From Aminobacter carboxidus (lineage in GTDB: Bacteria > Pseudomonadota > Alphaproteobacteria > Rhizobiales > Rhizobiaceae), in contig NZ_JACZEP010000009.1 in NCBI RefSeq assembly GCF_014863355.1, forward strand, positions 1 through 64,000: a stretch of DNA of 64,000 bases, in the 5' to 3' direction. Position 1 is the first letter of the stretch, and every line of letters starts with the position of its first letter. Under the pieces are notes generated by a model. It saw nothing but the letters and a program-made list of their open reading frames with translations, was not told the DNA's origin and made no database searches. The position numbers and the translations under genes are program-made. This document shows, one piece after another, positions 26,363-47,136 of the stretch.

Positions 26363-26617
26363 ATGAAAATGCCGAACACAGTGCTCGCCGAAGTTACAGC
26401 CAGCGTCTCGGAGCTGAAAAAGAACCCGATGGGAACCGTTGCTGCCGGTGAAGGGTTTCCGGTTGCCATTCTCAATCGCAACGAGCCGGCATTCTACTGC
26501 GTGCCTGCGAAGGCTTTCGAAGCGATGATGGAACGGCTCGAGGATATCGAACTCAACGCGATCGCCGACGCCCGCAAGGGCGAGAAGCGCGTGCGGGTGG
26601 ATATCGATGCCTTATGA
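26363..26617 (+). CDS. Type II antitoxin, Phd/YefM (StbD-like) family
   Basis: An 84-residue antitoxin. The N-terminal half (TVLAEVTASVSELKKNPMGTVAAGEGFPVAILNRNEPAFYCVPA) is the Phd/YefM DNA-binding fold, and the C-terminal tail (ARKGEKRVRVDIDAL) would wrap the toxin. It overlaps the downstream RelE/ParE-type toxin gene by 11 bases, the standard arrangement. The start may be the ATG at 26363 or the one at 26369. The promoter directly upstream suggests a leaderless mRNA. It lies between the transporter and purine loci and may have arrived by transfer. Confidence 0.9.
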   Translation: MKMPNTVLAEVTASVSELKKNPMGTVAAGEGFPVAILNRNEPAFYCVPAKAFEAMMERLEDIELNAIADARKGEKRVRVDIDAL

Positions 26618-43170: not shown

Positions 43171-44436
43171 ATGGCCATGACCGACCCGAAGCATTTTCTG
43201 ACCAGCGTTTTCGAAGCCGCCGTGGCTGCTGCCGACCCCGAGCTCACCATCCGCCGCCATCTGCCGGAAAAGCCCAAGGGTCGCACCATCGTCATCGGCG
43301 CAGGCAAAGGCTCGGCGCAGATGGCAGCTGTTTTCGAAAAAGCCTGGGACGGGCCACTGGAGGGCGTGGTCGTCACCCGCTATGGCTTTGCCGCCCCTTG
43401 CGAGCGCATCAGGATCGTCGAGGCTTCGCACCCGGTGCCCGACGCCAACGGCCTCGAAGCGGCAAAGCTGCTGCTGGAGACGGTGTCCGGGCTGAGCGAG
43501 GACGATCTTGTCGTGGCACTGGTTTCCGGCGGCGGTTCGGCGTTGCTGCCGTCGCCGGCCGGCCCCCTAACCCTTGCCGACGAGATCGCCGTCAACGAGG
43601 CGCTGCTCGCGTCGGGCACGCCGATCTCGGCGATGAACACCATCCGCAAGCACATCTCCGGCATCAAGGGCGGCAGGCTGGCGGCCGCTGCCTGGCCGGC
43701 GCGCGTCGTTTCGCTTGTCGTGTCCGACATTCCCGGCGACAATCCCGCGCTCGTCGCGTCCGGTCCGACCGTGCCCGACGAGGCCACGCGGGCCGATGCG
43801 CTCAGGATGATCGAGACCTACCGCATCGCGCTGCCTGCCAATGTCATGGCGCATATCAATTCGGCCGCCGCCGATGCGCCGCAGCCGTCCGATCCGCGCT
43901 TTGCCCGCAACGAGGTGCATGTCATCGCCTCGGCCGCGGTGTCGCTCGACGCTGCTGCTGAAGCAGCGCGCAAGCAAGGCGTCGAAACGGTCATCCTGTC
44001 CGACGCCATCGAGGGCGAGGCGCGCGAGATCGGCAGCGTGCACGCCGCCATCGCCCGTGAAGTCGCGACCCGCAACCGGCCGTTCAACAAGCCGGTGCTG
44101 ATCCTGTCCGGTGGCGAAACCACAGTCACCTTGCGCGCAAAAGGCAAGGGCGGGCGCAACAGCGAATTCCTGCTCGCCTTCGCCATCGGCATCGACGGGC
44201 TTTCCGGCATCGAAGCGCTTGCCGCCGACACCGACGGCATCGACGGTTCCGAGGACAATGCCGGCGCCTTCGCCGACGGCTCGACGGTTTCGCGCATGCA
44301 TGCTGCAAGCGTCGACGCCAAGGCGATGCTCGCCGCCAACAATGCCTGGACGGCGTTCAATGCCATCGGCGACCTGTTCGTGCCGGGCCCGACCGGCACC
44401 AACGTCAACGATCTCAGGGCGATCCTGGTCCGCTAG
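43171..44436 (+). CDS. Glycerate 2-kinase (MOFRL family, TtuD-like)
   Basis: A 421-residue kinase of the class II glycerate kinase family, which makes 2-phosphoglycerate and lets glyoxylate carbon re-enter glycolysis. Landmarks are IVIGAGKGSAQMA, SGGGSALLPSPAGPLTLADEI, DIPGDNPALVASGPT and the C-terminal MOFRL domain SGGETTVTLRAKGKGGRNSEFLLAFA. The position after the purine genes is logical, since allA releases glyoxylate, which the glycerate pathway can assimilate. I chose the ATG at 43171, and a TTG 12 bp upstream is possible. The convergent repair operon overlaps its end by 4 bases. Confidence 0.92.
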   Translation: MAMTDPKHFLTSVFEAAVAAADPELTIRRHLPEKPKGRTIVIGAGKGSAQMAAVFEKAWDGPLEGVVVTRYGFAAPCERIRIVEASHPVPDANGLEAAKLLLETVSGLSEDDLVVALVSGGGSALLPSPAGPLTLADEIAVNEALLASGTPISAMNTIRKHISGIKGGRLAAAAWPARVVSLVVSDIPGDNPALVASGPTVPDEATRADALRMIETYRIALPANVMAHINSAAADAPQPSDPRFARNEVHVIASAAVSLDAAAEAARKQGVETVILSDAIEGEAREIGSVHAAIAREVATRNRPFNKPVLILSGGETTVTLRAKGKGGRNSEFLLAFAIGIDGLSGIEALAADTDGIDGSEDNAGAFADGSTVSRMHAASVDAKAMLAANNAWTAFNAIGDLFVPGPTGTNVNDLRAILVR

Positions 44437-45887
44437 GCAGCCATCATCGCGCGCACGATCCCGATGTCCTCGGCGAAGCGGGCACGCTCGGCTCCGGCGT
44501 CCTGCGGGTCGCGGATGCGCAGGATGTAGGACGGATGGATCGTCAGGAACACGGCGAGGCCGTCGTCGCGCATGATGGTCTGGCCGCGCTGCCTGGTGAT
44601 TGCCACCGGCGCGTCCAGCAACGACTGGGCAGCGGTCGCGCCGAGCGCCACCACCAGCCTCGGCTCCACCAGCTTCAGTTCCTGCGCCAGCCACCAGCGA
44701 CAGGCCTCAACCTCGCCGGCATTGGGCTTGCTGTGGATGCGGCGCTTGCCACGCGGCTCGAACTTGAAGTGCTTGACGGCATTGGTGACGTAGACCGCAG
44801 TGCGGTCGATGCCGGCTTCGCCGAGCACTGCGTCGAAGATCTTGCCAGCGGGGCCGACGAAGGGCCTGCCCTGCAGATCCTCCTGGTCGCCGGGCTGCTC
44901 GCCGACGAACATCAGTTCGGCATCGTCGGGGCCTTCGCCGAAGACGGTCTGCGTCGCCTCGCTCCACAGCGGGCAGCGCCGGCACTGGCTCGCCTTCTGG
45001 CGCAGGGCGTCGATGGATTGCGCCTCAGCCGCTGCCGGTTGTTTCGCCGCCGGCCAGTGCTTCGCCTGAATCGCCTGGTGATGCGGCGCGGGCATTGTCG
45101 GCATCCTTGCGATCATCTCCCGGGCGGCCTGGTCGGCGCCTGATATCAGTCCCGGAATGAGCGAGGCCTCGGGAAGGTTCCGCCAGTATTTCTTGGGCAT
45201 CTCCGATTGCATCGCCTTCACCTTGAGACGGGCCGGATTGAAGATGCTGGTGAAATAGGTCCGCCACATCTCCTCCGACGGGTCGGCCGTGGGTGCGTCC
45301 TCTTTCGAGGCGCCGGGGCCGAGCGCCAGCATTTCGCGGTCCCATTCGGCCGAGCCGTGCGGCGTCAGGATTGCCCAGCGCATGCCGGTGAAGCGGCGCA
45401 CGAAGAACGGCGCGGCCAATTCGACGATAAAGTGCTCGGGCTCAAACCAGGCAACGAAACGCTCGTCGTCACCGTCGCCGATCTTTCGGAAGCGGACGAA
45501 GGCATGCATCTTGTGCTCGTCGCGCCGGACCGCCTTCTCCATCGCCTCGAAACGTCTGACGTCGGGGTCGGAGGCAATGTGGAGCAGATGCGGTTCGCTG
45601 CGCTGCCGCCACAGCATCCGGTAGAGCAGGGCGAAGCGCTCGCTGTCGCTGTGGCAGGTCACGATGGCCGCGCGGTCGACGAAGTCTCGCGAGACCTTGA
45701 GTTCGACAGCCGGGATCGGCGCTGGCAGCTCTGTCGCTGCGCCGCCGACATGCCACTCAATGTCCTCGGGTCTCACCTCGTTGGAAACAAGCGTTCTTGC
45801 CGCATCACGCCAGCCGCCGAAGTCGGTCGGACCGGCGAGGTGCACGGCGTATGCGGCCAGTGACAGGGCGGGCGGGCTGGTCATCAA
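44433..45887 (-). CDS. UdgX-type uracil-DNA glycosylase with N-terminal DUF4130 domain
   Basis: A 484-residue two-domain DNA-repair protein. Residues 1 to about 285 match the DUF4130 family (segment RALLYRMLWRQRSEPH-like: LLYRMLWRQRSEPHLL, and MHAFVRFRK). Residues about 295-484 are a UdgX glycosylase. It has FeS ligands Cys302 and Cys305 (CRRCP), motif GEQPGDQEDLQGRPFVGPAG, the specific loop KRRIH (381-385) whose His385 should bind covalently to the uracil-excised site, and motif HPSYILR. A further Cys396 is visible, and His373 sits where family 4 enzymes have Cys. ATGA overlap couples it to the radical SAM gene upstream. Confidence 0.93.
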   Translation of the reverse strand: MMTSPPALSLAAYAVHLAGPTDFGGWRDAARTLVSNEVRPEDIEWHVGGAATELPAPIPAVELKVSRDFVDRAAIVTCHSDSERFALLYRMLWRQRSEPHLLHIASDPDVRRFEAMEKAVRRDEHKMHAFVRFRKIGDGDDERFVAWFEPEHFIVELAAPFFVRRFTGMRWAILTPHGSAEWDREMLALGPGASKEDAPTADPSEEMWRTYFTSIFNPARLKVKAMQSEMPKKYWRNLPEASLIPGLISGADQAAREMIARMPTMPAPHHQAIQAKHWPAAKQPAAAEAQSIDALRQKASQCRRCPLWSEATQTVFGEGPDDAELMFVGEQPGDQEDLQGRPFVGPAGKIFDAVLGEAGIDRTAVYVTNAVKHFKFEPRGKRRIHSKPNAGEVEACRWWLAQELKLVEPRLVVALGATAAQSLLDAPVAITRQRGQTIMRDDGLAVFLTIHPSYILRIRDPQDAGAERARFAEDIGIVRAMMAA

Positions 45888-47119
45888 AACAGCTCGAGTT
45901 GTCGTGGCTTCGGCGCGATCGTCTCACGCAGCCTCATGGCATCGATGGACGCACCCGGTGACCAGCCGTCGGCGACGATGAATGGGCGCACCTTGGCTAT
46001 GGATTGGCACAGCCTGCCGACGTCCTCGAGCCGCAGCCGCTTGAAGCGGCGGGTCTCGATGACACGTTCGACGGCGCGCGTGCCGAAGCCCGGGATGCGC
46101 AGCAGCATCTCCTTGTCGGCGCGGTTGACGTCGAGGGGAAACGAGGCGCGATTGCGCAGCGCCCAGGCGAGCTTGGGGTCGATCTCCAGGTCGAGCATGC
46201 CGTCGGTTTGGCCGCCCAGGATCTCGCTTTGGTCGAAGCCGTAGAAACGCATCAGCCAGTCGGCCTGGTAGAGCCGGTGCTCGCGCATCAGCGGCGGCTT
46301 CTTCAGGGGCAAAGTGGAGGAGGCATCGGGGATCGGGCTGAAGGCCGAATAGTAGACGCGCCGCAGCTGGTAGCTGCCATAGAGCCGGGCGCTGGTCTTG
46401 AGGATGCCGGCGTCTGAAGTGGCGTCGGCGCCGACGATCATCTGGGTGGACTGACCACCCGGCGCGAAGCGTTCGCGTTTCTTCGTCCGCAGCGTTGGTT
46501 CGGCCTTTTCCTCGATCTTCGAACGCAGTTTTGCCATGGAAATACGGATCGTCTCCGGCCGCTTTTCCGGCGCCAGCCGTTTCACGCTCTCGTCGGTCGG
46601 CAGCTCGACATTGATCGACAGCCGGTCGGCATAGAGGCCGGCCTTTTCGACCAGTTCGGCCGAGGCATCCGGGATTGTCTTGAGATGGATGTAGCCGCCG
46701 AATTTCTCGTCGAGCCTCAGCCTCCTCGCCACCTCCACTATCTCGCCCATGGTTTCGTCGGGCGAACGGATGACGCCGGAGGACAAGAACAGCCCCTCGA
46801 TGTAGTTGCGCTTGTAGAAGTCCATGGTCAGCTGCACCACCTCGTCGACCGTGAAGCGGGCGCGGCGAACATTGGAGGACGAGCGGTTGATGCAGTAGCT
46901 GCAGTCGTAGATGCAGAAATTGGTCAGCAGGATCTTGAGCAGCGAGATGCAGCGGCCGTCGGGCGCGTAGGAGTGGCAGATGCCCATGCCCTCGGTCGAA
47001 CCGATGCCGCGCGACTTGAGCGAGTCGCGCCCTCCGGCGCCAGAGGAGGCGCAGGAAGCGTCGTATTTCGCGGCGTCGGAAAGGATTGCGAGTTTCTCGC
47101 GGGTCGAAAGAATTGCCAT
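45884..47119 (-). CDS. Radical SAM DNA modification/repair protein, UdgX partner
   Basis: A 411-residue radical SAM enzyme of the family described as a putative DNA modification/repair protein partnering the UdgX/DUF4130 protein. It has the motif Cys69-x3-Cys73-x2-Cys76 (NFCIYDCSYC), the N-terminus EKLAILSDAAKYDASCASSG, and a C-terminal helix-hairpin-helix DNA-binding segment (NRADKEMLLRIPGFGTRAVERVIETRR). The reaction it catalyses on DNA is unknown. The start is the ATG at 47119. It is the first gene of the operon and its stop overlaps the glycosylase start as ATGA. A LexA box lies 2 bases upstream of the start codon. Confidence 0.93.
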   Translation of the reverse strand: MAILSTREKLAILSDAAKYDASCASSGAGGRDSLKSRGIGSTEGMGICHSYAPDGRCISLLKILLTNFCIYDCSYCINRSSSNVRRARFTVDEVVQLTMDFYKRNYIEGLFLSSGVIRSPDETMGEIVEVARRLRLDEKFGGYIHLKTIPDASAELVEKAGLYADRLSINVELPTDESVKRLAPEKRPETIRISMAKLRSKIEEKAEPTLRTKKRERFAPGGQSTQMIVGADATSDAGILKTSARLYGSYQLRRVYYSAFSPIPDASSTLPLKKPPLMREHRLYQADWLMRFYGFDQSEILGGQTDGMLDLEIDPKLAWALRNRASFPLDVNRADKEMLLRIPGFGTRAVERVIETRRFKRLRLEDVGRLCQSIAKVRPFIVADGWSPGASIDAMRLRETIAPKPRQLELF

Positions 47120-47121
47120 AT

Positions 47122-47136
47122 GTTCATGGTATGTTC
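47122..47136 (+). promoter_or_regulatory. LexA (SOS) box, GTTC-N7-GTTC
   Basis: GTTC (47122-47125), ATGGTAT, GTTC (47133-47136): the exact alphaproteobacterial LexA operator with 7-bp spacing. It reads GAAC-N7-GAAC on the coding strand of the radical SAM gene. The box ends 2 bp before that gene's ATG, so LexA bound here would block the transcription start. This makes the downstream two-gene operon a predicted SOS target. The intergenic space to the next gene (47235) contains nothing else that I can identify. Confidence 0.85.

Follow-up and report, generated by a model that had tools for sequence, protein, structure and literature searches.

DUF4130 has been tied to radical SAM (S-adenosylmethionine) proteins and to uracil-DNA glycosylases (UDGs), and is called a predicted mutagenesis-related enzyme in the accessible text of PMC3765255. 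A two-gene COG1573-COG4277 operon under predicted SOS control was described for Bacteroidetes in PMC8565304, the accessible part of which casts it as a UDG-based excision system and cites earlier reports for Verrucomicrobia and Alphaproteobacteria (2016 and 2008). NCBIfam names the families TIGR03916 (radical SAM), TIGR03915 (DUF4130) and TIGR03914 (UdgX) by their mutual linkage and gives no reaction for the first two. TIGR03916, which we take to be the family of COG4277, has so far been named by genome context alone. We analysed such a locus in a 64,000-nucleotide stretch of Aminobacter carboxidus DNA (contig NZ_JACZEP010000009.1, positions 1 to 64,000; hereafter the window), where a TIGR03916 radical SAM gene is followed by a gene encoding a DUF4130-UdgX fusion protein.

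At the family level this locus does not differ from the linked systems: TIGR03916, TIGR03915 and TIGR03914 all match far above their curated cut-offs on two adjacent genes, which bears out the gene identities given in a preliminary description of the locus. That description had placed two overlapping genes at 44433..47136, and both are found there, sharing one base at 45884 where the TGA of the radical SAM gene meets the ATG of the DUF4130-UdgX gene. The best radical SAM start is ATG 47119 (MAILSTREK...), the same as the starts of the orthologues. The Bacteroidetes operon likewise has two genes and predicted LexA control, and both LexA motifs given for it in the accessible part of PMC8565304 are seen upstream of some of the relatives examined here; that operon was however presented as UDG-based, whereas many of the pairs described below lack UdgX. 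The preliminary description rightly took the family pairing as known from genome context (NCBIfam linkage names; PMC3765255, accessible text). Its proposal of an undescribed system had to be given up, since both the pairing and the SOS control had already been outlined (NCBIfam; PMC8565304, accessible text). What is new is a clamp-type tail on the radical SAM enzyme, six invariant cysteines, and a UdgX domain that is optional where DUF4130 is near-obligate; for the tail, the six-cysteine pattern and the optional UdgX the literature searched holds no description. We give an even chance to the reading that the locus encodes an SOS-induced, clamp-tethered radical SAM enzyme that, with DUF4130, processes a replication-blocking DNA lesion.

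The exact LexA box reported before the radical SAM gene is present (GTTCATGGTATGTTC, 47122-47136), with two bases between it and ATG 47119. Its 8-base core alone proves nothing, as it occurs at chance level both in the window (2 matches versus 1.59 expected) and in the 6.29 Mb genome (162 sites versus 178 for the reversed control). Because the core is not enriched, the box was judged by its conservation and its extended form only. The tighter form GTTCNNNNWWTGTTC has 16 sites in the genome versus 3 in the control and, besides the window's own, seven of them lie before two dinB genes (encoding DNA polymerase IV), ssb, uvrA, and imuA-like, uvrD/pcrA-like helicase and yifB-like genes. The imuA-like gene scored 66 bits where its cut-off is 150, and several repair-gene frames at these sites score below cut-off because they are cut by the locus end. 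No repair gene was tied to the remaining eight sites. The window's other GTTC-N7-GTTC core, at 26422-26436, lacks the A/T-rich spacer and corresponds to about chance expectation.

A chance origin of the box was considered, given the unenriched core, and rejected: the alphaproteobacterial box stands upstream of 123 of 124 orthologues versus 11 of 2802 control windows from the same loci. These 124 alphaproteobacterial loci comprise 68 matches from the family sample (the window and a relic included), 50 carriers from the phylum sample and six more of the genus. In 97 of 98 alphaproteobacterial loci the distance from the box to the conserved LxDAAKYD codons downstream of it is 50-142 bp, and the spacer of the box mostly starts with ATA (74, 72 and 78 of 87 GAAC-oriented boxes, base by base). 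The check for a box before orthologues that the preliminary description had proposed did not return non-conservation, and its assignment of the locus to the damage response is supported by this predicted LexA control. The sole alphaproteobacterial copy examined that has no LexA box is a relic (locus L097, genome G082), a radical SAM protein truncated to 177 residues.

Beyond the Alphaproteobacteria, boxes of other types precede the orthologues. The E. coli-type box CTGTN8ACAG was found at 19 of 29 other Pseudomonadota carriers (4 of 776 control windows), and in Bacteroidota CTAAN5TTAG was found at 19 of 63 loci (16 of 4576 control windows) and GGAN5TCC at 12 of 63 (132 of 4576), so that 30 of the 63 carry one or other of the published Bacteroidota LexA motifs. 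These counts drop eight Bacteroidota-group loci without the gene by open reading frame (ORF) pattern (L210, L211, L214-L219), place L156, L213 and L220 in no group and omit L257, a weak match far below cut-off. As group-specific LexA boxes stand ahead of orthologues across phyla, SOS control of this operon seems, from its promoters, to be old and to have persisted through changes of the LexA recognition sequence. Twelve Bacteroidota loci have a divergent gene beside the operon; the one that was scanned (L161:5077-5871) encodes a repressor with helix-turn-helix and peptidase S24 domains, the same domains as in LexA and CI.

Judged by co-occurrence, the conserved core of the system is the radical SAM enzyme with DUF4130, the latter near-obligate and UdgX an add-on. 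In the family sample of 151 genomes, 67 have a radical SAM protein above cut-off and 66 of these also have DUF4130, the locus of the remaining one stopping at a contig edge; in the phylum sample of 398 genomes all 84 with the radical SAM protein also have DUF4130, and three have DUF4130 alone. Within the genus the radical SAM protein is above cut-off in 7 of 10 genomes. The genome of Caulobacter vibrioides, included as a control, has matches to both the radical SAM and the DUF4130 family. Both genes are kept even when the pair is split, as in G022, with about 495 kb between them, and in G124, where they are on separate contigs. Of 82 neighbourhoods compared, three of them alphaproteobacterial and the others from further classes and phyla, 76 contain DUF4130, and the family next in frequency is found in 12. 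In the two split cases (L126 in G022, L127 in G124) the DUF4130-UdgX gene directly follows what reads by eye as a nucleoside-deaminase-like gene, and the roughly 1.7 kb upstream that was examined holds no LexA box.

The UdgX domain is distributed differently. By motif it is present on 91 of 96 DUF4130 ORFs in Alphaproteobacteria and 4 of 8 in other Pseudomonadota versus none of the seven Moraxellaceae-type ORFs, the single one from Brachymonas or the 69 from the Bacteroidota group. TIGR03914 likewise exceeds its cut-off in none of the 24 Bacteroidota and Moraxellaceae genomes with the radical SAM protein, in 23 of which DUF4130 is adjacent; one of the 24 has a weak match with an internal stop. 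UdgX is thus not the heart of the system, since many genomes have the radical SAM protein and DUF4130 without it.

This bears on an alternative in which UdgX is the main actor of a base-excision pathway, directed at uracil or at misincorporation by SOS polymerases, with the radical SAM enzyme as an accessory that makes a damaged base excisable. It would fit the suggestions that UDGs in the SOS response handle ribonucleotide misincorporation (PMC8565304, accessible text) and that DUF4130 or its associates might modify thymines (PMC3765255, accessible text), and the glycosylase domain of the window is well preserved. The preliminary description had seen a DUF4130 domain joined to a UdgX-type domain, and both matches are clear, in Pfam (DUF4130, PF13566, 141 bits versus a cut-off of 27; UDG, 121 bits) as in NCBIfam. 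UdgX signatures are motif A GEQPG, the R-loop KRRIH and motif B HPS(S/A)(L/V)(L/V)R (PMC10359453, accessible text). The first two are intact here when aligned to Mycobacterium smegmatis UdgX (PDB 6ail and others), with which they are shared; motif B reads HPSYILR, keeping H, P, S, L and R and deviating at Y and I, and in relatives it is mostly HPSYLLR, HPSFLLR, HPSFILR or HPSYILR. Among 115 UdgX ORFs with a readable R-loop, 110 of which also carry a DUF4130 signature, the R-loop histidine and GEQPG are each kept in 114. The present protein differs from the M. smegmatis enzyme in its motif B, in the fusion of the domain behind DUF4130 and in its pairing with a radical SAM enzyme; no work joining UdgX with a radical SAM protein was found in the literature searched. 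Against a leading role for UdgX stand the core of radical SAM enzyme and DUF4130, the lack of UdgX on all 69 Bacteroidota-group and all seven Moraxellaceae-type DUF4130 ORFs and the absence of TIGR03914 above cut-off from the 24 genomes, in which other glycosylase families were not searched. We consider this alternative unlikely. The model of the DUF4130 part (45138-45887) gave top fold matches mostly to DHH/DHHA1 proteins (RecJ, the C-Ala domain of alanyl-tRNA synthetase and others), weak but coherent, and on this modelling DUF4130 may be a catalytically dead DHH/DHHA1 relative.

The radical SAM enzyme ends in QLELF, the kind of peptide by which proteins bind the beta sliding clamp, whose consensus is QL[S/D]LF, mostly C-terminal in the client protein (PMC3716654, accessible text). 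A strict form, Q[LM]xL[FL] within the last 14 residues, is present in 181 of 221 closed radical SAM ORFs versus 1 of 2398 other ORFs from the same loci that are 150 residues or longer, and a broad form in 221 of 221 versus 20 of 2398 (L098, L254 and L257 are omitted from the radical SAM count). The strict motif was set after the first 16 sequences and the broad one once the variants were known; of the two counts the strict one is therefore to be preferred. By group, the strict form is found in 108 of 122 Alphaproteobacteria, 60 of 63 Bacteroidota, 4 of 6 Moraxellaceae and 9 of 29 other Pseudomonadota, the last group having QMALW, QASLF and similar tails in its place. Gln407 is conserved in 176 of 177 aligned relatives, versus no column above 66% in 382-406, and residues 407-411 are modelled with a predicted local distance difference test score (pLDDT) below 50. 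The motif therefore sits in a flexible place at the C-terminus, as in known clamp clients. DNA polymerases Pol II (QLGLF) and UmuC (QLNLF) have like tails, but these are polymerases, whereas here the tail belongs to a radical SAM enzyme and its clamp binding is only predicted. The tail suggests, from its sequence, that the beta-clamp is the enzyme's place of work. A literature search for radical SAM enzymes with the sliding clamp, judged by title and start of abstract, returned nothing on such a pairing.

With clamp binding a prediction and DUF4130 near-obligate, the QLxLF peptide could instead serve self-association or docking of DUF4130. QLELF nevertheless fits the published clamp consensus (PMC3716654, accessible text), stands at the end of an otherwise variable tail and keeps its glutamine and hydrophobic pattern through many spellings, and we regard a docking role as improbable. 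Rather less probable still is that the clamp-bound pair is an accessory of mutagenesis, which would mark or alter template bases so that DinB or ImuB-DnaE2 bypass lesions, with no repair. The same kind of LexA box at dinB and at the imuA-like gene of this genome, the resemblance of the tail to the clamp motifs of translesion polymerases (PMC3716654, accessible text) and the naming of DUF4130 as mutagenesis-related (PMC3765255, accessible text) all speak for it; the neighbourhoods speak against it, since DUF4130 so far exceeds any other family there and, among the families in at least 5 loci, none is polymerase-like (judged by eye; besides the pair, one was scanned).

The CxxxCxxC motif named in the preliminary description is C69-C73-C76. 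The protein matches PF04055 with 44.3 bits, and the best Foldseek match of its model (E 1.7e-4) is to radical SAM enzymes. Among 177 aligned relatives six cysteines are invariant, three of them outside the radical SAM motif, and from this conservation C23, C48 and C57 possibly hold a second iron-sulphur cluster. Neither these further cysteines nor the clamp-type tail had been noticed in the preliminary description. The helix-hairpin-helix claimed earlier is borne out in part: the model is at its most confident over residues 311-390 (pLDDT at least 90 in each block) and the region gives weak PDB matches to RuvA and ComEA-like proteins (E 0.004), but the HHH_5 and HHH_3 matches both fall below the Pfam gathering score. 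It is most improbable that the extra cysteines hold a sulphur-donating cluster as in lipoyl synthase, with the enzyme inserting sulphur into, or making, a DNA or nucleotide modification, for their spacing presumably differs from that of lipoyl synthase, the model is poor at these cysteines, and other radical SAM enzymes match equally well.

For the SOS-induced, clamp-tethered enzyme we envisage the following order of events. DNA damage would inactivate LexA, so that the radical SAM enzyme and DUF4130 are produced together. The helix-hairpin-helix region of the enzyme would bind DNA, while its flexible C-terminal QLxLF tail would dock it on the beta sliding clamp and so bring it to repair patches and stalled forks. 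At these sites the enzyme would use SAM radical chemistry to repair or convert a replication-blocking base, probably with the help of a second iron-sulphur site at C23, C48 and C57, DUF4130 acting as its subunit. Where it is fused to DUF4130, UdgX would excise uracil-like bases and covalently cap the resulting abasic site. In its fullest form, to which we give somewhat less than an even chance, this would be the first clamp-delivered radical SAM enzyme of DNA repair or modification: an SOS-induced, two-cluster enzyme with DUF4130 as near-obligate subunit, acting on a fork lesion in Pseudomonadota and Bacteroidota, to which some lineages added UdgX for capping abasic sites. Spore photoproduct lyase (SplB) is likewise a radical SAM enzyme that acts on damaged DNA and is SOS-regulated in several species (PMC8565304, accessible text); the present enzyme differs in having the helix-hairpin-helix, the clamp-type tail and three extra cysteines. 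No spore photoproduct lyase model appeared among NCBIfam matches to E 0.01 (library content for this family not checked) and no such entry among the structure matches listed. The clamp-type tail, the damage-type promoter kept across different LexA sites and the two-protein core give the vague label of DNA modification or repair a testable form. Should the reading hold, many common bacteria would use radical chemistry on DNA in their replication-coupled response to damage.

Several observations weigh against this reading. Both Bacteroidota motifs are missing from 33 of the 63 Bacteroidota loci, all four boxes from each of six Moraxellaceae loci and the E. coli-type box from 10 of 29 other Pseudomonadota loci; GGAN5TCC is itself a weak motif, and the counts include many closely related sequences and are therefore not independent. 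DUF4130 occurs without a radical SAM gene in three genomes that belong to one genus (G346, G363, G432). The model of the radical SAM protein is moderate (pLDDT 70, predicted template modelling score 0.65), and a second cluster is not visible in it because residues 19-48 and 69-82 have pLDDT below 50. The clamp motif is short, and both DinB proteins of the window genome lack its strict form, which is thus an incomplete list of clamp clients. Finally, the literature searched offers no biochemical work on either the radical SAM protein or DUF4130, and NCBIfam assigns no reaction, in agreement with what the preliminary description says of the radical chemistry and its DNA substrate; a search on the TIGR names returned only work on Chloroflexota, judged by listing.

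Table 1. Positions in the window of the operon, its promoter box and the protein features discussed
Feature	Position	Strand	Basis
LexA box, coding strand GAACATACCATGAAC	47122..47136	-	exact alphaproteobacterial-type match
Radical SAM enzyme gene, TIGR03916 rSAM_link_UDG, 411 aa	45884..47119	-	NCBIfam 562.9 bits, cut-off 343.5
Span of extra invariant cysteines C23, C48, C57	46949..47053	-	Cys in 177/177 aligned relatives
Radical SAM motif C69-x3-C73-x2-C76	46892..46915	-	sequence; invariant 177/177
C-terminal helix-hairpin-helix region, residues 313-359	46043..46183	-	Pfam HHH_5 E 5e-4, HHH_3 E 6e-3
QLELF, residues 407-411, beta-clamp-binding-type motif	45887..45901	-	sequence; relatives
DUF4130-UdgX fusion protein gene, 483 aa from ATG 45884	44433..45884	-	translation and profile matches
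DUF4130 / TIGR03915 domain	45165..45827	-	210.5 bits, cut-off 112.25
UdgX / TIGR03914 domain	44457..45161	-	332 bits, cut-off 189.95; PDB 6ail E 6e-50
UdgX R-loop KRRIH, abasic-site cross-linking histidine, H385 of translation P0002	44733..44747	-	alignment to UdgX 6ail

The PADLOC anti-phage defence models gave no family to E 0.01 for either protein. From ORFs read by eye, the pair is flanked upstream by a glutamine-synthetase-like gene and downstream by a convergent glycerate-kinase-like gene, neither of which is a usual SOS gene.

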